From contig CANQOO010000005.1 in assembly GCA_947625515.1 (NCBI GenBank), positions 88,576 to 122,729 of the forward strand: a DNA stretch of 34,154 bases, given 5' to 3'. The notes below the pieces were generated by a model that saw only the letters and a program-made list of their open reading frames with translations, ran no database searches and was not told the DNA's origin. The position numbers and the translations under genes were made by a program. The DNA is from an uncultured Clostridia bacterium. Lineage in GTDB: Bacteria; Bacillota; Clostridia; Christensenellales; UBA1242. Each line of letters starts with the position of its first letter. Positions within the stretch are counted from its first letter, which is position 1. Shown one piece after another: positions 1 to 28,421 of the stretch.

Positions 1-3000
1 CGAGATAATTTCAAAGTAAATTTCCTTTGTCTTATAGTTTTCAGCATCTTTATCGATATAAATTGCTTTTGCCCTCATTCTGTCGGCTGTTATCTCTAAG
101 TCTCCATTTTCCCAAACAAAGCCGTCTGGGAGTTGAATTTCCGACAATTTTGTAACTTGATGGTCAAGCCGAATCGTTGCGTTGTTCACGCTCGGTTTTT
201 CTGCTTTTGAAATTGTAAATTCAAGTTCCTTTGTGCCTTTATAATCATTTATTCCAGTGACAATCACTTGCCCATCCCCTGCAAGTTTGTTGTTTTGATA
301 TTGCAATTCAAAATCTGTGTCAAGCAAGAGAGTGTAATCTCCATCTATAGCAATAATTTTCGGCTCTTTTTCTGTTCCGTCATAAACAAAAACATTTCTT
401 TCAAGTTTTAGAGTTATCGTTGAAATTTCCTTTGGCTCTTCCTTTTTTATGGTTATTTCAACTTGATATGTGTTGTAATTTATCTTATCGAAATATTCTG
501 CCCCTTCGATAATTATTTCAGAATCAATCTTTCTGTTTTGATTGTTCCAAGACCAGCCTTGTGGAAGTTTTATCATGCTCAAAACCGCAACTTTTCTTCC
601 AACTGTCATCTCTTCTTGTGGCATTTCTTTTGGATGGTCTGCCTTTAAAATTGTCAAAGTTGTGAAAAGTGTGAGTTCGTTGTAGTTTTTCGAAGAGAGA
701 AGCACAACTTTCACATCATATTCCCCAGCGTTTGTTGGTCTGATTTCGCTGTAACTATTTGACGTTTTAAGCTTATAATAAACCTTTGCGCCCTCTTTTG
801 GATTCGTGTTACTGTTAATCAAGATCTCAGTTGGATTTTGCCCATATTCATATGAAGCAACTGAGACCATTCCGCTTCCCTCTGCCTTTAATATGTCAAA
901 ATAAATTGTTACAGTGCCATAATAATTTTCTGAAAGCGAAGTTATGACAAGATATGCTTTGCCAGCGTTTTTGTTGTTAAAATAATCCACTTTATAATCA
1001 CCGTTTTTCATCAATTCATGTTCACTGTCCATAATAGTCACTTCCGGAGTAAATTCAAAGCCACTATAAACAAATCTATTTTTAGTTAAGGTTATTGAAA
1101 GGTCTTCTAAATTTTTTGGAATAGGTGCATCCGCACTTATTGAATTAAACACGGTATCGGATTTTACAATTATATTGCTGTTTGGCGAATATGTTACATT
1201 GTTCGCAAACCACAAATATCCATTGTTAAGCATAGGTGCAGAAACAGATGCATTATATTTACAATTTTGCTGTGCTATAATTTCGCCGTTGTTTTTAAAC
1301 ACGACATATAAATATCCTTCATAAATTGCCAAGATAGACTTGTTTTCGGTTATTTCCACAAATGTGCCTGTATTATAAATTTTCTCATCAATTAGCCAAC
1401 CTAAAACATTGTTTACACCCTCTTTTTGTGGTAGATAAACTTTCCTTGGAGAGATTTCTTCTTCTTTTTCACTCTTAAGATAAATCCATTTAATTTTGAG
1501 TAAATCCGCTAATGTGACATCAAAAATCATATCGCCTTTTACTTCAAATTTTTCGCCATAACTATAACTCTTGCCACCATGTTCAGTGAAAGTTTCGGGA
1601 TATTTATCATCTAATATGAAAAGACTTCCGTCAAGCGTCAACATATCACCTCTTTCAACTTCCTTGTCAATTTCCTGTCCGTTGCAATAAAATTTTAGTG
1701 TGCATTTGTCATTGCCAATATAAACTTTTCCATTTTCGAGTCTAAAAGTGTTATCATCCATATTATTCAATTTTGCCAACACTTCATCTGAAATTTCAAA
1801 ATTTTCACTTTCAAAAGCTGGTATATCTTTCTCAAGCTCAGAAAAATCAAATGTCACTTTTTTGTTGCCAACAACTGAAAACATCCCATTGCAAAGAGTA
1901 ATGGTTTTTGAACTGTAAAGGATTCCCTCTAGATGACAATCGGCATAAATTTTAATATCTCCAGCACTTTCTTTAACGGCGATTGCGTCTGTTTGCAGCG
2001 TATTTAAAGTGGTGTTTTTTATGATTAAGTGCTGACCAGAGTTGTGGCAAACGGCAGTGCCACTCTTTGCCCTGTTGCCATCAAAAACGCAATTTGTGAT
2101 GTTTAGATTTTCGCAAGATGCCATGATCGCCCCGCCTGAGTTGCTTGAAAAATTGTTTGCAAAAACGCAGTCATCAAAACTAACATTTACAGTATTGTTT
2201 ATATAAATTGCTCCACCATTTGCACCTCTTAGATTTTCAAATTCACAATTTTTGAAGGTGATATCTCCTCTGTTCATCGCATAAAGCCCACTTGTATTGT
2301 GAGTGTTGCTGTTTCTAAAATATGCATTTTCAATAAACAAATCTCCATTTCCACTTGTCCTAATAAATGCCATTTGCCTACTGAGATTATTCCCTTCAAA
2401 AATTATTTTTGCATTCGGTTTTCCAAGTATTTTAAGAGTGGCAGTGTTGTCTCCATTTGCATAAATAATTTCTTTTGTTTTTGCAAACATTATAATGTTG
2501 TGATTAACGCTGTCATCAACCGTTATCGTGATATTTTTGTTGTATATGTGAATTCCCTCTTCACGGACATCGTCCAAAAGTTTAATTACATCATTACTTG
2601 CAGCGTCATTAATTGCTTGTGAAAGGGATGTATAGGTTCTTCCATTAAGCGAACAAATTTTATTCTCACTTGTTGTTGCACTTTTTTCTTCACTTGGTTT
2701 TGAAGTTCTAAAATAAATATCATAGGCAATCGCCTTAAATTTTGGACTTCCGACCATATCTAAAACGATGCAGTTGCTGTAAGTAAAACCCACAACCTTG
2801 TTTGTTGTTGTGTCGAGAATTTCATAGCCCAAAAGCCTAGAATCGTCAAAATCTTTTAGTTTGATTGTATATTGATTTCCATCTTTGAAGACACTTAAAA
2901 TTTCACAACTTTGAGTGCCATCAAAAAGAGTGTCTATCTCATCTGTAAGTGACAGCCCCTTGCGTGCAAGATTTTCATACGTTTGTGCATTTTGATACCA

Positions 3001-4689
3001 AAGTTTTGGCATGAAATCTCGTTGAATTTCATTATCCAACTCCGCCTGTTGCATGGCTTGTAAGAAATATTGCGATGCACTTTCTTCTTTAAAAGCATTG
3101 TTTGAGATATATGCTTTATATCCCCAGCGTTCGAAATAATATGAAAGGTCAATCCCCGCCGCAATCGATGACAAAAACACCATTTTTTCCGTTGACGACA
3201 TCATGTTATTTACCGAACGATTTCGATAGAGATTTTGAAGACGTGGCCAAAAGCCTGGGAAAGCCGCTTCCAAATACCACCAAAGAAAATAGTTTTTTCT
3301 TTGATCATCTGTGTGAAAGAAAGGAGTTTTTGCCGTATCATCATTGACAAGATGATTAAAGGTTTCTTGCGTGTGATCATGAGTTGGTGCGTCACTTGGG
3401 ACGGCCCCTTTAAACAAATTCATTTCTGCATATTTTGCATACATATTGTTTGTTGTTTCGGTTATTTCAAGCTCGGATGTGTCAAGCATATGTCCTATCT
3501 CATGGGCAAATCCCCAATCTCTGCTCATTGCTTCCGTTCCGTCTGCAACATAAACCGCAATATCTTCCCACAAACTTCCTTTGTAAATTCCCACATGGTC
3601 ATTGCCTGCATATGCCCCAGCGCCTTCCAGATTTTGTGTATCACGAATGTTGATGTTTAAATGTTCGTTAATTTCTCTATAGTCAGGATCATCTGCATTG
3701 AAAGTCACGCCGGAATATTCTAAAAGCATTCGCATATAGTTATCCCAACTTATAAGATTGTCATTCACACTGTGGCCATTAGTCACATATTCTTTATAGC
3801 ACGCCGATGCGGCAATTGTGAAATAAACATGATCGGCAACAAGTTCCGTCATATCAAACATTCTTGATTTATTGCTTTGATAGTTTTTGTAATATTCCGT
3901 TAAATTTTGCAGAAACAAAGCTTCATCTTCGCCCTTTTTGTAAACTGGGTAAAAGTCACCGCCCTCTATGTAAACTTTCACATCCCCTTGCATATCGTGC
4001 GTTCGTGGGTTTGAAAGATGAATAGCCCCTCCATGCACCACACTTTTGCTGTAACCAGGTTTTTCTGTCACTAAATCCGGTACTTCAAAAACATTTTTCC
4101 CATTTAAAATAGGCTTTTCAAACTTAAAACTATTGCTAGATCCCTCAAACTGAGTGAAAACCACATATGGGCGATAATTATCACTTTCGCACTCCATATA
4201 AATTGTGATTTTGTCATTGGCGTAGGCATATATACCCGTTGGTTGTCTGTCAGAGCCAAATCGTTTCATATGCATATCATATTGACAATAATTCCTTATA
4301 GTGCCATATTGAGTGAGTTTGTTTAATGCATCATCTAGGGTTGAAAATTCTCTGTGCGAATCAAACCTAACTTCACCTTTAACAACTTTTTTGGCACGTT
4401 CAAAATCTTCTTTGTTGTAAGAATCGAGATTTTTGACAGATTCTTCATATGCCTCGATTTTTTCAATAGAATTGTATTTTTGCTTAACACTTGTTTGTGT
4501 ATAATCTTCAAATAAATTATCTATCGTCAGTGGACCGGAATTAGTTTCACTCGCCTCGCTTATGATTGTTTCATTTGTGACAGCATAAACAGGCTGAGTT
4601 TGAAAACGTAGTCCAAAAAATATTCCTATTGCCGATAGCAGTAGTAAACAACTCATGTAAAATAAAAATTTTGATTTTTTATTCTCCAT
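1..4689 (-). CDS. Large secreted M60-like metallopeptidase with beta-helix and Ig-like repeats (C-terminus outside window)
   Basis: The reading frame stays open for 1563 codons from ATG 4689 to base 1, so the C-terminus is missing. Residues 1-36 form a signal peptide (MENKKSK, hydrophobic core, cleavage near VYA). Around residues 385-415 is a zinc site WGFAHEIGHMLD followed by ETTNN; this HExxH-plus-downstream-Glu layout resembles the M60/enhancin gluzincins, many of which cut mucin-type glycoproteins. Residues about 690-900 are right-handed beta-helix repeats (GGAIY, GGAIM, CEFENL, CVFDGN). From about 1170 onward there are at least two Ig-like units of the type VYSG...LMKNGDYKVDYFNNKNAGKA...YYGT, common in Clostridial surface proteins. 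The role as an exported host-glycoprotein peptidase is inferred; the substrate is unknown. Codon use is visibly more A/T-rich than in the housekeeping genes. A wall anchor would lie beyond the window. Confidence 0.8.
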   Translation of the reverse strand, partial: MENKKSKFLFYMSCLLLLSAIGIFFGLRFQTQPVYAVTNETIISEASETNSGPLTIDNLFEDYTQTSVKQKYNSIEKIEAYEESVKNLDSYNKEDFERAKKVVKGEVRFDSHREFSTLDDALNKLTQYGTIRNYCQYDMHMKRFGSDRQPTGIYAYANDKITIYMECESDNYRPYVVFTQFEGSSNSFKFEKPILNGKNVFEVPDLVTEKPGYSKSVVHGGAIHLSNPRTHDMQGDVKVYIEGGDFYPVYKKGEDEALFLQNLTEYYKNYQSNKSRMFDMTELVADHVYFTIAASACYKEYVTNGHSVNDNLISWDNYMRMLLEYSGVTFNADDPDYREINEHLNINIRDTQNLEGAGAYAGNDHVGIYKGSLWEDIAVYVADGTEAMSRDWGFAHEIGHMLDTSELEITETTNNMYAKYAEMNLFKGAVPSDAPTHDHTQETFNHLVNDDTAKTPFFHTDDQRKNYFLWWYLEAAFPGFWPRLQNLYRNRSVNNMMSSTEKMVFLSSIAAGIDLSYYFERWGYKAYISNNAFKEESASQYFLQAMQQAELDNEIQRDFMPKLWYQNAQTYENLARKGLSLTDEIDTLFDGTQSCEILSVFKDGNQYTIKLKDFDDSRLLGYEILDTTTNKVVGFTYSNCIVLDMVGSPKFKAIAYDIYFRTSKPSEEKSATTSENKICSLNGRTYTSLSQAINDAASNDVIKLLDDVREEGIHIYNKNITITVDDSVNHNIIMFAKTKEIIYANGDNTATLKILGKPNAKIIFEGNNLSRQMAFIRTSGNGDLFIENAYFRNSNTHNTSGLYAMNRGDITFKNCEFENLRGANGGAIYINNTVNVSFDDCVFANNFSSNSGGAIMASCENLNITNCVFDGNRAKSGTAVCHNSGQHLIIKNTTLNTLQTDAIAVKESAGDIKIYADCHLEGILYSSKTITLCNGMFSVVGNKKVTFDFSELEKDIPAFESENFEISDEVLAKLNNMDDNTFRLENGKVYIGNDKCTLKFYCNGQEIDKEVERGDMLTLDGSLFILDDKYPETFTEHGGKSYSYGEKFEVKGDMIFDVTLADLLKIKWIYLKSEKEEEISPRKVYLPQKEGVNNVLGWLIDEKIYNTGTFVEITENKSILAIYEGYLYVVFKNNGEIIAQQNCKYNASVSAPMLNNGYLWFANNVTYSPNSNIIVKSDTVFNSISADAPIPKNLEDLSITLTKNRFVYSGFEFTPEVTIMDSEHELMKNGDYKVDYFNNKNAGKAYLVITSLSENYYGTVTIYFDILKAEGSGMVSVASYEYGQNPTEILINSNTNPKEGAKVYYKLKTSNSYSEIRPTNAGEYDVKVVLLSSKNYNELTLFTTLTILKADHPKEMPQEEMTVGRKVAVLSMIKLPQGWSWNNQNRKIDSEIIIEGAEYFDKINYNTYQVEITIKKEEPKEISTITLKLERNVFVYDGTEKEPKIIAIDGDYTLLLDTDFELQYQNNKLAGDGQVIVTGINDYKGTKELEFTISKAEKPSVNNATIRLDHQVTKLSEIQLPDGFVWENGDLEITADRMRAKAIYIDKDAENYKTKEIYFEIIS

Positions 4690-4696
4690 ATATATT

Positions 4697-4725
4697 ATTA
4701 TAGCAAATTTATATTATTAAATCAA
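4697..4725 (-). promoter_or_regulatory. Sigma-A type promoter of the M60-like gene, placed for a leaderless transcript
   Basis: On the minus strand, TTGATT (4725-4720), a 17-nt spacer and a perfect TATAAT (4702-4697). Only seven bases lie between the -10 box and the ATG at 4689, so transcription should start at or next to the start codon. No Shine-Dalgarno sequence precedes the ATG. The signal peptide begins directly at this ATG, which supports the start. Confidence 0.6.
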
Positions 4726-4781
4726 ATAGGATGCACAAAAAAGGTCGTTTTATTTCTAACGAGCAAGTATCTTTTTATTGT

Positions 4782-5348
4782 TTATGGATAAAGTCTTCCG
4801 TTGTCATTCCATTCGCCATACATGATGTTCTTTTTAGTGTTTTCAATAAACTTGTTTAATCTTGCCTCATAAACACCTAAATCTCTCTTTTTCATAATTT
4901 GTATAGTGTCAAGCCTAACTCTTTTGTATAGGTCAGGGAAGTTTTGAAAATTTTTCCAAACCTCTTTGTCTTTTTTTAATCTTGCAAGGATTTCATCTTC
5001 AATCTTAAAACTATCTTTTGGAATAAGCCTTCTGCCAGCTTCGGTCATCTTGCCCAAACCTTCCATTCGTTTGCATCGTTCTTTATTTAACTCTGACCAC
5101 AAACTCCTTTTTTTGCGTGGAGCAAATTTTTGAGCCGTAATACCGTTTGTTATTTTTTTAGTTGTGCTGTCAATCCAGCCAAAGCAAAGTGCTTCTTCCA
5201 CAGCGTCAACATACCAAAAATTATTGTCGTCTTGCGGCCTACCACGCTTAACAATAACCCAACATTCTTTTTCTGTCGCGTGATTTTGTCCAAGCCATGC
5301 TCGAAATTCATCTCTGCTTTTGCCTGTACGTAATTTTTTTATTTCCAT
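4782..5348 (-). CDS. YdeI/OmdA (OmpD-associated) family protein
   Basis: A 188-residue soluble protein. The N-terminal part (RTGKSRDEFRAWLGQNH, ECWVIVKRGR, VEEALCFGWIDS, APRKKRSLWSELN) matches the YdeI/OmdA family pattern, including the EALCFGWIDS signature and the RKKRSxWSxxN block. The C-terminal half (KDSFKIEDEILARLKK, WKNFQNFPDLYKR) is the usual helical extension. Biochemical function is not established for the family; some members are linked to stress or peptide resistance. No signal peptide or membrane segment. It lies just upstream of the M60-like gene on the same strand, 92 nt apart, but that gene has its own promoter. No clear Shine-Dalgarno precedes the ATG. It is inside the segment bounded by the tRNA-Thr fragment, so it is probably element cargo. 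Confidence 0.8.
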   Translation of the reverse strand: MEIKKLRTGKSRDEFRAWLGQNHATEKECWVIVKRGRPQDDNNFWYVDAVEEALCFGWIDSTTKKITNGITAQKFAPRKKRSLWSELNKERCKRMEGLGKMTEAGRRLIPKDSFKIEDEILARLKKDKEVWKNFQNFPDLYKRVRLDTIQIMKKRDLGVYEARLNKFIENTKKNIMYGEWNDNGRLYP

Positions 5349-5402
5349 TTACATAGTTTTAGGCAGTTCAACATCGTTTTAGTTCACTCAAAATGGCATA
5401 AT

Positions 5403-5443
5403 TGTTGTCAACTGTTGTCAATATTTTCAATTTTTTGACAACA
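5403..5443. repeat. TGTTGTCAA direct and inverted repeats near the attachment-like site
   Basis: TGTTGTCAA occurs at 5403-5411 and 5413-5421 in direct orientation and as TTGACAACA at 5435-5443 in inverted orientation. Copies 2 and 3 could form a 9-bp stem. They lie about 85-125 bp from the tRNA fragment at 5527, the kind of position where arm-type recombinase or excisionase sites sit in integrative elements. They also precede the YdeI-family gene and could instead be an operator. Function is inferred. Confidence 0.4.
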
Positions 5444-5526
5444 CTTTTTCAAATTGATTGCCAAATCGCTTTAATTATGGTATATTTAGAAGCATAGAAC
5501 ACAACCCTTTGTTATTGTGTTTTTGT

Positions 5527-5572
5527 CTTGGTAAGGCGGAGGTCACGGGTCCGATTCCCGTCATCAGCTCCA
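5527..5572 (+). pseudogene. 3' fragment of tRNA-Thr(GGU): probable attachment-site duplicate
   Basis: The fragment begins at the anticodon loop (TTGGTAA, anticodon GGT) and runs through the 3' anticodon-stem strand GGCGG, a T-arm with stem ACGGG/CCCGT, the acceptor strand CATCAGC, discriminator T and an encoded CCA. The 5' half is absent: upstream bases cannot form the acceptor, D-arm or 5' anticodon strand. A clean 3' fragment starting at the anticodon loop is what tyrosine-recombinase integration into a tRNA gene leaves at the far end of the inserted element. The orientation implies that the element lies to the left, with the intact tRNA-Thr outside this window. Confidence 0.75.
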
Positions 5573-5574
5573 GT

Positions 5575-5601
5575 AAAAAACTTGCAGTAAGCAAGTTTTT
5601 T
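5575..5601 (+). terminator. Rho-independent terminator behind the tRNA-Thr fragment
   Basis: CTTGC-AGTAA-GCAAG hairpin flanked by six A and six T, starting three bases after the encoded CCA. It is the native 3' terminator that belonged to tRNA-Thr. The tRNA-Leu locus has an equivalent terminator. Confidence 0.8.
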
Positions 5602-5980
5602 GTTTTGCTTTGCAAAACAGCAAACTTCGTTTGCACTGGAGCTTTCAGCGTTCGCATACGCTCACTGAACAGCTCCAAAGGTGTGCATTAAACAAGTTTT
5701 TTTGAGTTGCAAAACGGCAAACTTCGTTTGCACTGGAGCTTTCAGCGTTCGCATACGCTCACTGAACAGCTCCAAAGGTGTGCATTAAACAAGTTTTTTT
5801 GAGTTGCAAAACGGCAAACTTCGTTTGCACTGGAGCTTTCAGTGTTCGCATACGCTCACTGAACAGCTCCAAAGGTGTGCATTAAACAAGTTTTTTTAAG
5901 TTGCAAAACAGCAAACTTCGTTTGCACTGGAGCTTTCAGCGTTCGCATACGCTCACTGAACAGCTCCAAAGGCGTGCCTC
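5602..5980 (+). repeat. 97-bp tandem repeats of a three-hairpin unit carrying the tRNA-Thr 3' end
   Basis: Four units; the last three begin near 5691, 5788 and 5885, an exact 97-bp period, and differ by only a few bases. The first (5602-5690) diverges at its 5' end. Each unit has a hairpin (GTTTTGC/GCAAAAC in unit 1, decayed in the others), then GCAAAC-ttc-GTTTGC, then a long hairpin with outer arms TGGAGCT/AGCTCCA and inner GTTC/GAAC. The 3' arm AGCTCCA equals the tRNA-Thr 3' end and the 5' arm is its complement. There are no unique spacers, so this is not a CRISPR array. The last copy abuts the start of a broken gene. Confidence 0.85.
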
Positions 5981-10650: not shown

Positions 10651-13476
10651 TCACATTTTCGAATTTAAATGCTGCTGGATGTTATGGAAATTTGCCCATG
10701 GGTCTTTTTTGCTAAGTCGCTCCAACGCCGCATGAAGGTCGATGTCGGCTGGGGCAATTTTGTCAAGTTCGCTCCAAAAGATTGGGCAAGAAACTTTTGC
10801 TCCCGGCCTTGCACGAAGTGAATACGGTGCAACGCTTGTTGCCGTGCGTGTGTTTCGCATAAAATCAATAAAAATCTTGCCTTTTCGGTTGTTTTTCCGA
10901 ATGTTGGTGGTGTATCGCTCCGGATATTTACTTTCAAGCAGGTGTGCAATTTTTTCCGAAAAATCGTGGAAATTTTTCCAGTTTGCCGCTGGTTGAAATG
11001 GAACGCACACATGATAGCCTTTTCCACCGCTCGTCTTCAAAAAACTGACAAGATTAAGTTTGTCCAAAACTTTTTTCAAATCCTTCACCCCCTGCCTAAC
11101 CTTTTGCAAATCCAAATTTTTGTCTGGGTCGAAGTCGAAAACCATGTAATCCGGCTTTTCAAGGGTGCGGACGTGGCTGCCCCACATGTGAAATTCCAAA
11201 GTGCCAAGTTGGACTTGCTCCAAAAGCCCCTGCTCGTTTTCGACGGCAAAATATTCCCCCTTCTCGCCCTCGTCGTTTGTGACAATAACCTTTGTAATTC
11301 CCACCCGTTCTGCCGTTGGATGTTTCTTGTAAAAGCCCTGCAAAAGCGTGTTATGGCAACGCACAACGCTTAAAATTCTTCCCTTGACAAACGGAAGCAT
11401 GCGGGAGGAAACGCTGGCATAATATTGTGCAACATCCTCTTTTGTCACCCTCGGTTTTTTGAATAGGATTTTGTTGGGATGAGAAATTTCAATCCCACAA
11501 ATGCAAGAAGTTGCATTTTTTGCGGTTTTTTTGCGGCTTTTTGCAAAATTTGTTGCATCATTCTCATCTATCATTTTGTGGCTTTCAATTATTTCACCAA
11601 CTTTTTTGCCGTTTTTTTTGCCAGTTTTGCCTCCGCTTTTTGCAACAGTTTTATCACTGATTTTCTTGTCAATTTCCCCAACATTATGTTTTCCAACTTT
11701 GTTGTTAGACTTATCAATTAAATTCTCTTTCAACCTTTCTTTTGAATTTCCCTCAGAGTTTTCTCTTGGCACTTCAAGCACAACTTCTTGTGCTGTTTTA
11801 TCTTCCCGAAGCCCCTTAAAGCTCGCCTGTCTCAAAACGCCATCTTTTGTCACTTCCGCAAACTGAATTTCTGCAACATATTTGGGTTTAAGCCAAAAAA
11901 TTTTGGTCTTTTTATGCTCCTCACGAATGGCACTCCACATTGTTTTTTTTGTAATTAAAATTTCAATATTTTGCTCGCTAAAAGGGCTTTTTTTGCAAAT
12001 TATTGGATGAAATTTCTTTAATAAAATTTTCGACTCATGCTCGTCAAATCCGGTGCCACATTTGCCAGCATATCTAAACTGGTCATTGTCATAATATCCC
12101 AAAATAATGGCACTGAGGTCTTTTTTATCCGACTGCAAAAAGCCGCCAATCACAAATTCCTGTCGTCTATAACATTTGATTTTCAGCCAGTCATCGTTAC
12201 GCACGCCCGCATATTTTGAATCTCTTCTTTTTGCCACCACACCTTCAAGTCCCATCTTTTCCACTGCCTTAAAAAACTTTTTGCCGTCCCCTTCAAAATG
12301 CTCAGCATATTTCAAATTGGGATAAAATTCTTCGTTCTCTTGCCAAAAATCGTGCAAAATTTGCTTTCTCTCCACAAGCGGCAACCTTCGCAGGTCTTGC
12401 CCATCCAACGCAAGAATGTCGAAAATCATGTATATTGCTGTGTCCGTTTTTCCGCTTCTCATAAAATTTTGCAACGCCTGAAAATCCGGTCTGCCACCCT
12501 CGTCAGGGACAATTATTTCCCCGTCCAAAATCAGAGAATGCCCATGTGCCATCTTTTGAACCTGCTGAGAAATAACTGAAAATTTTTCCGAAAAATCGGT
12601 TTGATTTCGAGTTATAAGTCTCACCTTCCCAGCCTGAGCAAAAGCAACAATGCGATAGCCGTCATATTTTACTTCAAAAACATAGTCCTCTCCGCTCGGG
12701 ACAACGTCTGCAAGTGTGCACAACTGCACATCCACATCTTGGAACGGATTTTTTGGAACGCTCTTCCTTGAAGAATTTTTTAAAACATCAGAACTTTTAT
12801 TTGAGAAATCTTTTGAAACATTTTTGCTCTTTTTTAGCTTGATTTTTTGCAAATTTCCCGCATTTTCGCCCGTTTTTGTTGCATTTTTGTTATTTTTACC
12901 AATTTTAATTTTTGCATTGCTGGCGATTTCTTGCATTGTTCTGCCCGTTTTAACGCTTGTGACAAATTCTTCAATTCCGGGCGAATTTTGGGCAAATTCA
13001 TCCAGCTCCTTGATAAGCAGCCAATTTTTCTCCTCTTTCAAACGAACCAACGCCCACCTTCCCTTTAATCTTGAACCGAACAAGACAAATTTAAGCGAGC
13101 CGCTTTTAAGTCCTTTCGAAAAACTGCCAATTGGCTGGAAAGTGCCAAAGTCCCACAGCATCACCGTGCCGCCGCCATATTCGCCTTCCGGAATTATGCC
13201 CTCAAAATCGGCATATTCCAGCGGATGGTCCTCCACATGCACTGCAAGCCTTTTGTCACGCGGGTTAAAAGACGGGCCTTTAGGGACAGCAAAAGAGATA
13301 AGCACGCCTCTCCACTGCAAACGCAGGTCATAATGGTCATGACTGGCAAGATGGTGTTGAACAGCGAAAATATATTTCCCGCCGTCAGGACCTTTTGCCT
13401 TTGCGTTGTCATTTCCAACAGGTTCGCTTGTTTTCAAAAAATCGCGTTTTTTGCGATATTTTTGCAATTTTTTCAT
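10651..13476 (-). CDS. ligD: Multidomain ATP-dependent DNA ligase D (phosphoesterase-ligase-polymerase)
   Basis: A 941-residue protein with all three LigD domains. Residues about 1-165: 3'-phosphoesterase (HDHYDLRLQW, HVEDHPLEYADFEG, GEYGGGTVMLWD). After a Lys/Asn/Ser-rich linker, about 245-540: ATP-dependent ligase with nucleotidyl motif EVKYDGYRI (Lys near 270), LDGEIIV and GVVAKRRDSKY. A second Lys-rich linker of about 90 residues leads to the archaeo-eukaryotic-type primase/polymerase (about 655-941) with VFDFDPDK and KTSGGKGYHV. LigD works with Ku in non-homologous end joining, for example in spores, where only one chromosome is present. Ku, often adjacent, is not in this window. ATG 13476 has GGAG nine bases upstream, better than the upstream in-frame TTG. 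The Lys/Asn linkers are unusually long. Confidence 0.95.
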   Translation of the reverse strand: MKKLQKYRKKRDFLKTSEPVGNDNAKAKGPDGGKYIFAVQHHLASHDHYDLRLQWRGVLISFAVPKGPSFNPRDKRLAVHVEDHPLEYADFEGIIPEGEYGGGTVMLWDFGTFQPIGSFSKGLKSGSLKFVLFGSRLKGRWALVRLKEEKNWLLIKELDEFAQNSPGIEEFVTSVKTGRTMQEIASNAKIKIGKNNKNATKTGENAGNLQKIKLKKSKNVSKDFSNKSSDVLKNSSRKSVPKNPFQDVDVQLCTLADVVPSGEDYVFEVKYDGYRIVAFAQAGKVRLITRNQTDFSEKFSVISQQVQKMAHGHSLILDGEIIVPDEGGRPDFQALQNFMRSGKTDTAIYMIFDILALDGQDLRRLPLVERKQILHDFWQENEEFYPNLKYAEHFEGDGKKFFKAVEKMGLEGVVAKRRDSKYAGVRNDDWLKIKCYRRQEFVIGGFLQSDKKDLSAIILGYYDNDQFRYAGKCGTGFDEHESKILLKKFHPIICKKSPFSEQNIEILITKKTMWSAIREEHKKTKIFWLKPKYVAEIQFAEVTKDGVLRQASFKGLREDKTAQEVVLEVPRENSEGNSKERLKENLIDKSNNKVGKHNVGEIDKKISDKTVAKSGGKTGKKNGKKVGEIIESHKMIDENDATNFAKSRKKTAKNATSCICGIEISHPNKILFKKPRVTKEDVAQYYASVSSRMLPFVKGRILSVVRCHNTLLQGFYKKHPTAERVGITKVIVTNDEGEKGEYFAVENEQGLLEQVQLGTLEFHMWGSHVRTLEKPDYMVFDFDPDKNLDLQKVRQGVKDLKKVLDKLNLVSFLKTSGGKGYHVCVPFQPAANWKNFHDFSEKIAHLLESKYPERYTTNIRKNNRKGKIFIDFMRNTRTATSVAPYSLRARPGAKVSCPIFWSELDKIAPADIDLHAALERLSKKDPWANFHNIQQHLNSKM

Positions 13477-13566
13477 ATATTTCTCCAATTTTAAAGTTAA
13501 TTTTGACTTCTCTTGTTTGTTTGAAGTTTCATTTGCCCTAACATAATCTTCTTCAAATTGTGCTCA

Positions 13567-13762: not shown

Positions 13763-15097
13763 ATGTTTAGAAAACGCGATTGCTGCTGCAACCCACAAGA
13801 TAATTTTGGAGTTACCCTTTCAGGTTCCTCGCTCACATCTGGCAGAGTTGGCCCACCGGGGCGAACAGGAGAAACAGGTCCCACAGGCCCGCAAGGAAGG
13901 ATTGGCCCCACCGGCCCGACAGGTCCAACTGGACAGATAGGTCCAACAGGCCCACAGGGCTTGACCATCATTGGCCCAACCGGTGCCACAGGCCCGACAG
14001 GTCCGCAAGGCATGATTGGTCCCACGGGTGCAACCGGTCCTGCCGGTCCGCAAGGTCCTGCTGGCGGAATAGGTCCAACAGGAGCCCCCGGCGGTGGAGA
14101 ATTTGCCATTGGCGTGGTGAACACAATCCCTTCAAACGAGGATGCAAGCGTGAATGTGACCTACAACGGCAACAAATCCATTTTCAATTTCAACATTCCA
14201 CGTGGTGAAACGGGTGCCGTCGCCCCGTCTGAGACCATTGTTGTGCAAAGCACCCACACCATCGAGCCGTCCCAGAACGCTTTTGTGCAAGACAGTTTTG
14301 TCGGAAATGTGCATTATTTGGAATTTTACATCCCTCAGGGTGTGCGTGGTGCCACAGGTGAGACTGGCGAGCCGGGCGTTGAGGGTGCACAGGGCGTTCA
14401 GGGTCTGCAAGGTCCTCCGGGTGCACAAGGGCCAAAAGGGCCTCAGGGCGACCGCGGTCCTGCCGGGCAAAATGGAGAGATTGGCCCACAAGGCCCGCAA
14501 GGAGTGCAGGGTCCTCCCGGTGAGCGTGGTCCGCAAGGCCCAAGAGGTGAACAAGGCGAGCGTGGTCCGCAAGGGGCAACTGGCCCCTATCAAATTAAGT
14601 CGGCATTCATCCTTTCCTATGCCGAAGCCGGCTATTTGTATGAAAACGACGGGCTGCAAATCAACTCTGGTGCCCGCTTGCCGCTGATGAGAGTGGAAAC
14701 AAACTATGGCAACATTGTGTCCATAAATCAAAACGGCATCACCTTCAACGAAACAGGAGTTTATCAAATCACGTTTGTCACAAGCGGACGCGTCCAAATG
14801 ACACATTCAAATTTTGACTCCGGCACTGATTTTGTGGCGATTGGCTTTCGCGTGACGGGCTCAACGCAAATTTTGGCGGCAGCGAACTCTTGGTCCATCG
14901 AGCAAGCACCAAAAACACTGTATGGTCAAGGCGTTTTTGTGGTGGACGACACAAGCAAAGTGTATGAACTTGTCAATCTGCAAAAAAAGCCTGTCTACAT
15001 CTACGGTTGCGACATCACCCAATCCATCACCGATTCTTATTTTGCCAGCACACTTCTGACCATCATCATCACAAAACTTTCTCCGTCAGTGACATAA
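13763..15097 (+). CDS. Collagen-like (BclA-type) surface protein 1
   Basis: A 444-residue protein without a signal peptide. The N-terminus is Cys-rich (RKRDCCCNP), followed by a Gly-X-Y collagen stretch dominated by GPT/GPQ/GAT triplets (about 29-112) with one break, GLTIIGPTG. Then come two related 35-45 residue modules ending FNIPRGETG and FYIPQGVRG, a second collagen stretch of different composition (GPQ, GER, GEQ; about 195-272), and a C-terminal globular domain of about 170 residues, probably a C1q/TNF-like trimer head. Such proteins form trimeric filaments on spore exosporium (BclA family); lack of a signal peptide fits assembly from the mother-cell cytoplasm. The second collagen-like gene is convergent and 371 nt away. 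Spore location is inferred from the family and the presence of spoIVA. Confidence 0.88.
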
Positions 15098-15468: not shown

Positions 15469-16350
15469 TTAGAGAAGTTTTACCAAAGTGATGCTGTTTG
15501 CTGGGTCTGTTCCTTGAATTGGTGTGAACCCATTTGTTGAGCCGCTGACAAGTTGATAAGATTCTCCGCCCGCTGCGTTGATGACTGTGGAGCCACTCAA
15601 AAACGCTGTGCCAGTGGTCGCTGCCACTGAATTTTGTGATGCACTGGAACCAAGCGGTGTGCCTGCCTGAGCAGTGTTGACAAATTCCACAACAATCTGC
15701 TGTGGAGTGGCACCATTTGTGATGCCGACATGCCACATAACCAAATATGTGCCTGCCTCGTTCACGGTGATGGTTCCGTCGCCTGTGCTTAGGCTGATTC
15801 CACTGGATTCAACATCGGTGTCAAACACAAAAGCGTTGCCTTCGTTAAGTTCGCTTCCGCCGCCTGCCGTTGCCACCAAATATGCCGGTGTGATGACAGG
15901 AGTGTCTCCAGTCGGACCCTGAGGGATGTTGAAGGTGAGTTCAACATTTCCTTCTGCCGTCGTTTGAGCCGTGACAGAAGCGTCGTCACCTGGGTCAAGA
16001 GTGTTTGTTCCGGCAACAGTGATTGTTGGAGTTGCACCTGTCGGGCCGGTTGGACCTGTTGGACCTGTCGGACCGATTGGACCTTGCGGGCCGGTTGCAC
16101 CTGTTCCTGTTGGGCCTTGCGGACCAGTTGGGCCAGTTGGGCCAATAATGCCAAAGCCAGTTGCACCAGTTGGACCTTGCGGACCAGTTGGGCCGGTTGG
16201 GCCGATAGGTCCCTGCGGGCCGGTTGCACCTGTTGCACCAGTTCTTCCCACAGGGCCAACAGGGCCTTGCGGGCCAGGAGTTGTCACATAGATTGGCGAA
16301 ACACCTTGAAATGGACGTCTGCAACCGCAGAAAAAGTTGTTTTCGTTCAA
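15469..16350 (-). CDS. Collagen-like (BclA-type) surface protein 2
   Basis: A 293-residue protein. The N-terminus again has a short Cys motif ([10 protein letters not shown]), no signal peptide, then a Gly-X-Y region of about 80 residues rich in GPT/GAT/GPQ with one break GFGIIGPTG, like the break in protein 1. A module PGDDASV...[11 protein letters not shown] leads to a C-terminal head of about 125 residues (VDT-type beta strands, [12 protein letters not shown], ending SITLVKLL) resembling the BclA C-terminal domain. The start is TTG 16350, preceded by AAAGGAGG seven bases upstream; no ATG is better placed. Expected role: trimeric filament of the exosporium or outer spore surface, by family inference. 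It is convergent with protein 1 and related to it in N-terminus, collagen type and FNIP module. Confidence 0.88.
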
Positions 16351-28071: not shown

Positions 28072-28208
28072 CACTCCGCTTTTTTGCTCTTATGGCAAAA
28101 CGAGCAAGAGTGCATCTTAAAATCGAGCCCCCGAAAATGCCTGTCATTTTTGGGGATAAGGAGCAAACGAGCGTCAAAGCGATACTTTTTGCCATTTATT
28201 GGCAAAAA
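28072..28208 (+). ncRNA. Candidate structured RNA or leader upstream of tRNA-Leu
   Basis: Three hairpins: a two-part stem CACTC...TTGCTC with GAGCAA-GAGTG (28072-28112); CCCC-g-AAAATG with CATTTT-t-GGGG (about 28129-28155); and TTTTTGCC with GGCAAAAA (28186-28208). No coding frame is convincing. No T-box, SRP or 6S signature was recognised. It could be a tRNA precursor leader or an independent small RNA processed from the same transcript. Confidence 0.4.
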
Positions 28209-28234
28209 TGAGCCACCAGCGAAGTTTGCGACGT

Positions 28235-28320
28235 GCCGAAGTGGCGGAATGGCAGACGCACGGGACTCAAAATCCCGCGAGGGCAACTTCATGAGGGTTC
28301 GACCCCCTCCTTCGGCACCA
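28235..28320 (+). tRNA. tRNA-Leu (anticodon CAA)
   Basis: 86 nt with encoded CCA. Acceptor stem GCCGAAG/CTTCGGC, D-arm with TGGCGGAATGGCAGACGCA, anticodon stem CGGGA/TCCCG with loop CTCAAAA (anticodon CAA, reads UUG), a long class II variable arm (GAGGGCAACTTC), T-arm GAGGGTTCGACCCCCTC, discriminator A and CCA. The long variable arm confirms a class II tRNA. Confidence 0.97.
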
Positions 28321-28321
28321 G

Positions 28322-28347
28322 AAACTTTGCTTCGCAAAGTTTTTTTG
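28322..28347 (+). terminator. Terminator of tRNA-Leu
   Basis: AAACTTTGC-ttc-GCAAAGTTT followed by a T run, two bases after the encoded CCA. Same position as the terminator behind the tRNA-Thr fragment. Confidence 0.85.
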
Positions 28348-28421
28348 TTTTTTCAAAACAAAAACGCACAGCATCCGCTGTGCCCTGGTGCCGACGTTCG
28401 CTCCGCTCACTGAACGGCACC
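28347..28421 (+). repeat. Hairpin train behind tRNA-Leu whose last arm copies the tRNA 3' end
   Basis: Hairpin GTTTT/AAAAC (28347-28359), hairpin GCACAGC/GCTGTGC (28366-28383), then CTGGTGCCG (28385-28393) and CGGCACC (28415-28421) as outer arms with inner GTTC/GAAC around the core CGCTCACT. CTGGTGCCG is the exact 9-nt complement of the last eight tRNA bases plus the first trailer base. The tRNA-Thr fragment has the same order of elements with arms matching its own 3' end. Confidence 0.75.

Follow-up and report, generated by a model that had tools for sequence, protein, structure and literature searches.

The closest described relatives of the structures reported here are the tRNA-linked repeats (TLRs) of Escherichia coli, which include rtT/rttR behind tyrV (Egan and Landy 1978 and Rudd 1999, both as cited in PMC8144298). 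The accessible text of PMC8144298 lists 22 TLRs at ten loci of strain K-12, each of which ends in 18-19 bp of the gene upstream. Three TLRs behind 5S genes give rise to Hfq- and CsrA-binding RNAs, and the group as a whole is said to lack a general function (PMC8144298). The word 'inverted' is absent from the main text of PMC8144298; an inverted arm may already be on record in the 1978 and 1999 papers. A second point of comparison is provided by the small inverted triplications (SIT, or DUP/INV/DUP) of yeast and cancer genomes, about 148/160/148 bp in size, which the accessible part of PMC13334657 ascribes, spacer included, to replication errors, and whose hairpins are handled by SbcCD when put in E. 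coli. Two other candidates were set aside on the accessible parts of their sources: the TRIP1 repeats, which are unrelated, and a paper on tRNA-fragment annotation (PMC9897764), which is about attR-type fragments and not about units of the present kind. Our literature searches found no description of these units, which is not proof of absence.

The locus compared with these systems lies in a window, the whole stretch of 34,154 nt that was analysed, which is a piece of contig 5 of the 1.11-Mb, 80.7% complete genome of an uncultured, gut-type Clostridia bacterium. The RecJ-like protein of the window is 77% and 83% identical to its counterparts in two metagenome-assembled genomes (MAGs) named 'uncultured Clostridia bacterium'. 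A preliminary description had reported that the same order of hairpins recurs behind tRNA-Leu and behind a tRNA-Thr 3' fragment, and that the outer arms of the last hairpin match each its own tRNA. Both sequence and folds agree with that order (Table 1). The arm matches likewise stand out from shuffled sequence, as the Leu arm is the reverse complement of 10 nt of its own tRNA end (CTGGTGCCGA), one trailer base included, which was reached in 1 of 5000 dinucleotide shuffles, and the Thr arm is a 9-nt reverse complement of its own tRNA, reached in 2 of 5000. The folding energies are -48.5 for the Leu train, against -24.7 +/- 3.2 in 300 shuffles, and -42.0 for the Thr train, against -23.2 +/- 3.2 (300 shuffles). 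The core CGCTCACTGAAC occurs at three loci of the genome, the two trains and the intact tRNA-Thr(cgt) at C5:34568-34640, where the arm matches 9 nt of its own tRNA end (7 of 5000 shuffles). It was also correctly noticed that the last hairpin copies the tRNA 3' end; the best structure for the Leu train, however, has this inverted arm paired to the tRNA's own 3' terminus and not to the shorter downstream copy. Behind the orthologous tRNA-Leu(caa) in two named MAG contigs there is only a terminator-like hairpin. At the gathering threshold, Rfam matched tRNA alone in the whole window, and at E <= 0.1 eight loci gave tRNA, two matches below the gathering score, and nothing else.

Some neighbours of the Leu train deserve mention. 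The hairpin module that ends at the tRNA-Leu 5' end belongs to a family, GGGNNCCC..GAAAA...AGGAGCAAACNAGC...GTTTGCGACG, seen at window positions 28125-28234 and at loci L187, L235, L125 and L181, and standing in tandem at about 103-106 bp in two relatives. Elsewhere the window encodes a LigD-type protein (10651-13488) with ligase, primase-polymerase and phosphoesterase domains, so that end joining may exist in this small genome, and two proteins that by eye are collagen-like, with Gly-X-Y repeats (13763-15097 and 15469-16350).

Table 1. Features of the Thr and Leu regions, in window positions. A and B denote the paired strands of a single tRNA arm, a prime marks an inverted copy, and C5 is contig 5.
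Feature	Position	Strand	Basis
Right part of the 12.6-kb integrated element (C5:81539-94101)	1..5526	.	gene content, repeats
tRNA-Thr(ggt) tail, anticodon loop to CCA, attR-like remnant	5527..5572	+	identity to C5:81464-81538
First Thr unit: terminator-like hairpin, hairpins, inverted arm, hairpin, direct tail	5573..5677	+	sequence; fold
Inverted arm ACTGGAGCT of the first Thr unit	5635-5643	+	
Direct tail AGCTCCA of the first Thr unit	5671-5677	+	
Three more tandem Thr units, 97-bp spacing	5678..5968	+	184-nt stretches 97% and 96% identical to the first
Hairpin module CCCCCGAAAA...AGGAGCAAACGAGC...GTTTGCGACG, ending at the tRNA-Leu 5' end	28125..28234	+	resembles sequences near other tRNAs in relatives
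tRNA-Leu(caa), CCA encoded	28235..28320	+	ARAGORN; Rfam RF00005
Terminator-like hairpin and T run, directly 3' of tRNA-Leu	28322..28346	+	by eye; fold
GTTTTTTCAAAAC hairpin (GTTTT/AAAAC)	about 28348..28360	+	sequence; fold
GCACAGC/GCTGTGC hairpin (GC hairpin)	28366..28383	+	sequence; fold
B', inverted copy of the tRNA-Leu 3' end, CTGGTGCCG	28385..28393	+	sequence; shuffle test
Inner GTTC...GAAC hairpin, core CGCTCACT	28396..28415	+	sequence
B, short direct copy of the tRNA-Leu tail, CGGCACC	28415..28421	+	sequence

The Thr train proves to be more than the single series of hairpins first described, as it consists of four tandem units, in which ACTGGAGCT starts at 5635, 5732, 5829 and 5926 and the tail copy AGCTCCA at 5671, 5768, 5865 and 5962. 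The fragment in front of it is indeed a tRNA tail, and it can now be identified as an att-type remnant of tRNA-Thr(ggt), with 82.6% identity over 46 nt to the intact gene 12.6 kb upstream on the same strand. The 12.6-kb element between them comprises C5:81539-88575 (locus L051) and window positions 1-5526, and its left end, outside the window, encodes a KilA-N protein and a broken tyrosine integrase, the two pieces of which adjoin the intact tRNA-Thr(ggt). Further products of the element are a regulator of the Cro/C1 type and two very large proteins (981 and 1608 aa), the genes for which have a common 300-nt stretch (84%) at their 3' ends, and a 32-nt direct repeat (88%) lies near both of its ends. 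The intact tRNA gene, the broken integrase and the direct repeat near both ends together identify the Thr tail as the attR, or far end, of an old integrated element. The likeness to an attL/attR pair, in which a tail repeats the intact tRNA directly with an integrase between the two, applies to the fragment at 5527-5572 alone and not to the hairpin units behind it; by their position beyond the attR tail, these units probably predate the element. At tRNA-Lys(ctt) of genome G022 the order is tRNA, a 7.7-kb element with a PF00589 integrase, an attR tail, and then a unit with an inverted T arm and a second tail copy.

Some further observations concern integrases. Elements of 7.7-9.9 kb with PF00589 integrases lie in the anticodon loop of tRNA-Lys(ctt) at L249, L250 and L251 (genomes G010, G030 and G022). 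The genome of the window has four PF00589 matches: two pieces of the one broken integrase, one match beside a tRNA-Ile, and a 364-aa protein that by eye we take for the housekeeping Xer, Pfam calling it only a phage integrase. The match beside tRNA-Ile(gat), at C2:157989-158381 (locus L048), about 440 bp from the tRNA and near the contig end, perhaps marks a further tRNA-integrated element. None of the four matches in this 80.7% complete genome could be assigned to an integron integrase.

How widespread are the hairpin units? In the genome itself, 36 of the 37 tRNAs have downstream sequence, and the tails of Arg(acg), Lys(ttt), Lys(ctt), Glu(ttc), Leu(caa) and Thr(cgt) score best against their own downstream DNA. 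Those of Arg(cct) and Leu(tag) also beat all others, though without a visible unit; Glu(ctc) looks by eye like Glu(ttc), yet its own tail did not beat all others. The trains behind other tRNAs have quite different hairpins. Of 211 tRNAs from nine genomes of the genus, 21 beat all 60 controls in the direct comparison and 17 in the reverse one, where about 3.5 were expected. We also searched 294 tRNA loci of the genus for a tail copy of at least 13 nt within 500 nt, a threshold passed by four of the tails named above, and for an inverted copy of at least 9 nt in between, with one random other-isotype tail per locus as the control. A second tail copy was present in 39 of the 294 (control, 1 of 294), and an inverted copy of the same tRNA preceded it in 31 of these 39 units, where 2.5 were expected, leaving eight units without one of that length; in reading these counts it should be borne in mind that the set comes from related species that are not independent, that most of its 44 tRNA-Lys(ctt) and 34 tRNA-Leu(caa) loci were fetched on purpose, that some stretches were picked for partial tRNA copies, and that the two named MAG loci are included. 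When Lys(ctt), Leu(caa) and the hand-picked stretches are left out, the tail copy is found at 14 of 213 loci, with an inverted copy in 12 of those. The trains are thus not confined to the two tRNAs at which they were first noticed, and in most units elsewhere an arm matches the adjacent tRNA as well. In nine other genera of the family, the best 30 loci of each search gave a tail copy in 6 of 59 (control, 0), three units having an inverted copy of at least 9 nt (0.4 expected), of which one, L308, is no better than controls. In other families of the class, the best 30 loci of each search gave 2 of 60, both with an inverted copy (0.4 expected; control, 0). The tRNA-Lys(ctt) units occur in many of the species looked at and are missing from others, and tandem copies are seen not only in the four Thr units but also at Lys(ttt) and Leu, where there are cases of at least two. 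The feature is real and beyond chance at many tRNAs of the genus, with single cases in other clostridial genera and families.

In the notation of Table 1, a typical downstream unit reads, by eye, tRNA - terminator - B' (hairpins) A' - A (hairpins) B to CCA - terminator. Units at Lys, Glu, Leu, Ser and Tyr use the T arm, whereas those at Ile, two at Met and one at Leu use the anticodon arm. In some Leu units B'A' is an unbroken inverted T arm of 14-16 nt, and the Leu and Thr units of the window are reduced forms, B' - hairpin - B, with a B of 7 nt. Tail copies of 16-23 nt, which make up 24 of the 39 (16 of these 24 being Lys), start in what we take, by standard tRNA numbering, to be the T loop; other copies have their start in the anticodon region or the D region. 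Units upstream of a tRNA gene are mirrored, so that a 5' head copy split in a loop is followed by an inverted arm and then by the intact tRNA, and they are present at 19 of 252 loci (control, 1), with the inverted arm in 9 of the 19 (0.5 expected). The earlier suggestion, a palindromic element with tRNA 3' ends as its insertion sites, is therefore only partly right, as the breaks lie in T, anticodon and D loops and there are mirror units at 5' ends. Moreover, of the 38 units with sequence there (one of the 39 has none), 25 have after the tail copy a terminator similar to that of the tRNA, which points to local duplication more than to the arrival of a foreign element. Because the terminators are alike in these 25, it appears that tail and terminator are usually duplicated together; in the other 13 the second terminator differs by the threshold used, and exchange within arrays could have homogenised terminators.

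The hairpins are partly conserved. By eye, Lys units across species have a common GGCCATTCG...CATAACG, and their hairpins keep the pairing while the letters change; a MAFFT alignment of the Lys units misaligned the closing arms. The hairpin pattern GGGNYCCCNGAAAA gave 12 matches in five of the six genomes searched, and 11 of the 12 lie in loci that contain a tRNA gene and measure no more than 3 kb. At L054:1509-1838, behind tRNA-Arg(acg), a 109-aa ORF with a weak DUF4406 match below the cut-off stands between two units, the second of them degenerate, and is possibly a gene carried between repeats.

Do the arms really follow the neighbouring tRNA, as the preliminary description held? The interior of 14 tRNA-Lys(ctt) units, for which the tail copy had been the sole basis of selection, agrees better with its own tRNA than with exchanged ones, to a degree reached by 27 of 20000 permutations. 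In seven tRNA-Leu units, five Leu rows having been left out by hand, the fit is not significant (1901 of 20000). None of 20000 permutations reached the fit of 31 units, a partly circular result, as the units had been selected for their own inverted match. The sequences support arms that follow the neighbouring tRNA, and for Lys this is demonstrated.

How do the clostridial units compare with the E. coli TLRs? With neighbouring tRNA genes masked, eleven K-12 stretches gave a tail copy in 13 of 50 tRNA/5S rows, one arg row reaching the unit of the next arg gene, so that there are 12 distinct K-12 units, 11 behind tRNA genes and one behind 5S. The unmasked comparison gave 23 rows, of which 11 were kept and 12 dropped as the next tRNA gene (Leu 2, Gln 2, Ala 1, Val 2, Gly 2, Met 2 and one arg). 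The inverted T arm and split second copy of the clostridial units are plain in 4 of the 12 K-12 TLRs, tyrT, tyrV, lysQ and lysV, with exact inverted T arms of 10, 10, 13 and 13 nt. These four and argV are the 5 of 11 in which the inverted arm fits its own tRNA better than all other-isotype controls; in the other six units behind tRNA genes it does not beat them, and the 5S unit has an inverted match of 6 nt only. The E. coli Lys, Arg and Tyr units have, by eye, a common hairpin core. Like TLRs, the clostridial units stand directly behind the tRNA in one to several tandem copies (those of Thr behind a displaced attR tail). As to the end of the repeat, which equals the upstream gene over 18-19 bp in E. 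coli, the genus has a tail copy of at least 13 nt at 39 of the 294 loci, 16-23 nt in 24 of these, and the Leu and Thr units of the window have one of 7 nt only. The hairpin sequences, on the other hand, seem by eye unrelated to those of E. coli, and in the clostridia the tail breaks also fall in the anticodon and D regions and mirror units occur at 5' ends. The clostridial trains appear to be TLRs in a new lineage, with an anatomy also found in part of the E. coli set.

What process might build such units? The account we favour, to which we would give an even chance of being correct, is that each unit of these TLRs is a duplication-inversion-duplication of the tRNA gene's own DNA, produced via template switching at the tRNA arms; here the birth mechanism of the units, like their function, is what we infer. 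Replication would meet the self-complementary arms of the tRNA gene, and two template switches would give birth to a unit, which would consist of an inverted arm and then a second direct copy, split in its loop by hairpins and running to the CCA. A second terminator would often be copied as well, and mirror units would arise upstream of tRNA genes. Unequal exchange between tail copies would then raise the number of units, which might keep step with their tRNA by recombination with it and by hairpin-templated correction; the interrupting hairpins would let the palindrome survive. Some units may later gain RNA roles of the kind reported for E. coli rrA/rrB/rrF. Like the SITs, so far as the accessible part of their description goes, 31 of the 39 units run direct - inverted - direct and include a spacer, as do 9 of the 19 upstream units in mirror form; the inverted part differs in being only about 10-20 nt here, tied to tRNA arms and kept over species. 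A process driven by the folded gene would fit with breaks that fall in T, anticodon and D regions, with units that lie on either side of tRNA genes and at a 5S gene, and with arms made to each tRNA. Of the mechanisms named in the preliminary description, a copying mechanism is the better one. Template switching does not explain the hairpins in the loop of the second copy; they are present in the units looked at and by eye partly conserved, for which pure accident does not account. Among the loci compared we found neither a birth event nor an exact before/after pair.

An alternative that we consider unlikely, while granting it some weight, is a structured trailer RNA, made by read-through past the first terminator, whose inverted arm would pair with the tRNA end or its copy and which would affect processing or act as a small RNA. 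The best Leu fold does pair the inverted arm with the tRNA 3' end, and most Lys units fold into multi-branched structures that are closed by B'/B and carry conserved motifs; nevertheless, the antisense strand folds more stably than the sense strand in 11 of 15 Lys units, a terminator-like hairpin precedes the units looked at, and no Rfam family but tRNA scored above the gathering score in the eight loci. Stems under selection in a sense-strand RNA should show more G-U than A-C. We counted these pairs in the 31 units with an inverted arm, omitting the other 8 of the 39, and took unit hairpins past the first 30 nt. Unit hairpins gave a G-T to A-C ratio of 6:9, and arms gave 18:14. Over the first 45 nt, terminators had 68:12 (Fisher p 0.0005 versus unit hairpins), and tRNA hairpin stems had 18:9, from which the units do not differ significantly (p 0.12); whole units with their terminators gave 16:8, and all these counts are small. 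Because the unit hairpins show no sense-strand wobble preference, copying at the DNA level is favoured, weakly to moderately, and a trailer RNA acting on processing, as first proposed, is less supported. Stable DNA triloops of the GNA type, which might betray a folded bottom strand, numbered 10 bottom versus 3 top among the 29 triloops in units, but terminators lean the same way, with 7 versus 1 among 39.

One might think instead of folded attachment sites, that is, of cassettes with small genes or none that tyrosine recombinases put into tRNA loops. In integron attC and CTXphi attP hairpins, a core site is rebuilt from paired arms that enclose unpaired or extruded segments, and by analogy the stems B'/B and A'/A might rebuild the tRNA core site in single-stranded DNA. 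We regard this, too, as unlikely, while giving it some weight. Many breaks do fall in the T loop or anticodon loop, which Williams is reported to have named in 2002 as the usual places of integrase crossover; elements with a PF00589 integrase occupy these tRNA-Lys genes, where the copied tail begins in the anticodon loop, and also tRNA-Thr; and one Arg unit is followed by an ORF and a second, degenerate unit. Against this, only four PF00589 matches, none of them recognised as an integron integrase, occur in the incomplete genome, the terminator is usually duplicated with the tail, and D-region breaks, 5' mirror units and a unit at an E. coli 5S gene are all seen. The arms, moreover, change with each tRNA, which would be needless for one enzyme. 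A bolder reading, to which we likewise assign a low probability, makes of all TLRs one widespread class of element that rewrites its arms, via folding of single-stranded DNA, to match the adjacent tRNA arm: a hairpin element, before or behind the gene, that customises itself and is copied or recombined at tRNA loops. Its plan would have been overlooked since the first E. coli case, that of 1978. Could the units be no more than plain tandem duplications of tRNA tails, with hairpins by chance? Tandem arrays with near-identical terminators are indeed common; but the frequency of the gene's own reverse complement and the own-tRNA fit of the Lys units make this very improbable.

Template switching at the folded arms of tRNA genes is thus the reading that we carry forward. 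That a clostridial genus and some of the E. coli TLRs have a plan in common, an inverted arm and a split second copy, makes of these repeats a class with a testable origin, and the clostridial and E. coli loci offer many natural units for its study. For annotators, the lesson is that fragments of tRNA tails or heads near tRNA genes need not be att sites. The plan itself suggests that tRNA genes may drive local rearrangement via their own folded arms, growing tails by copying error.
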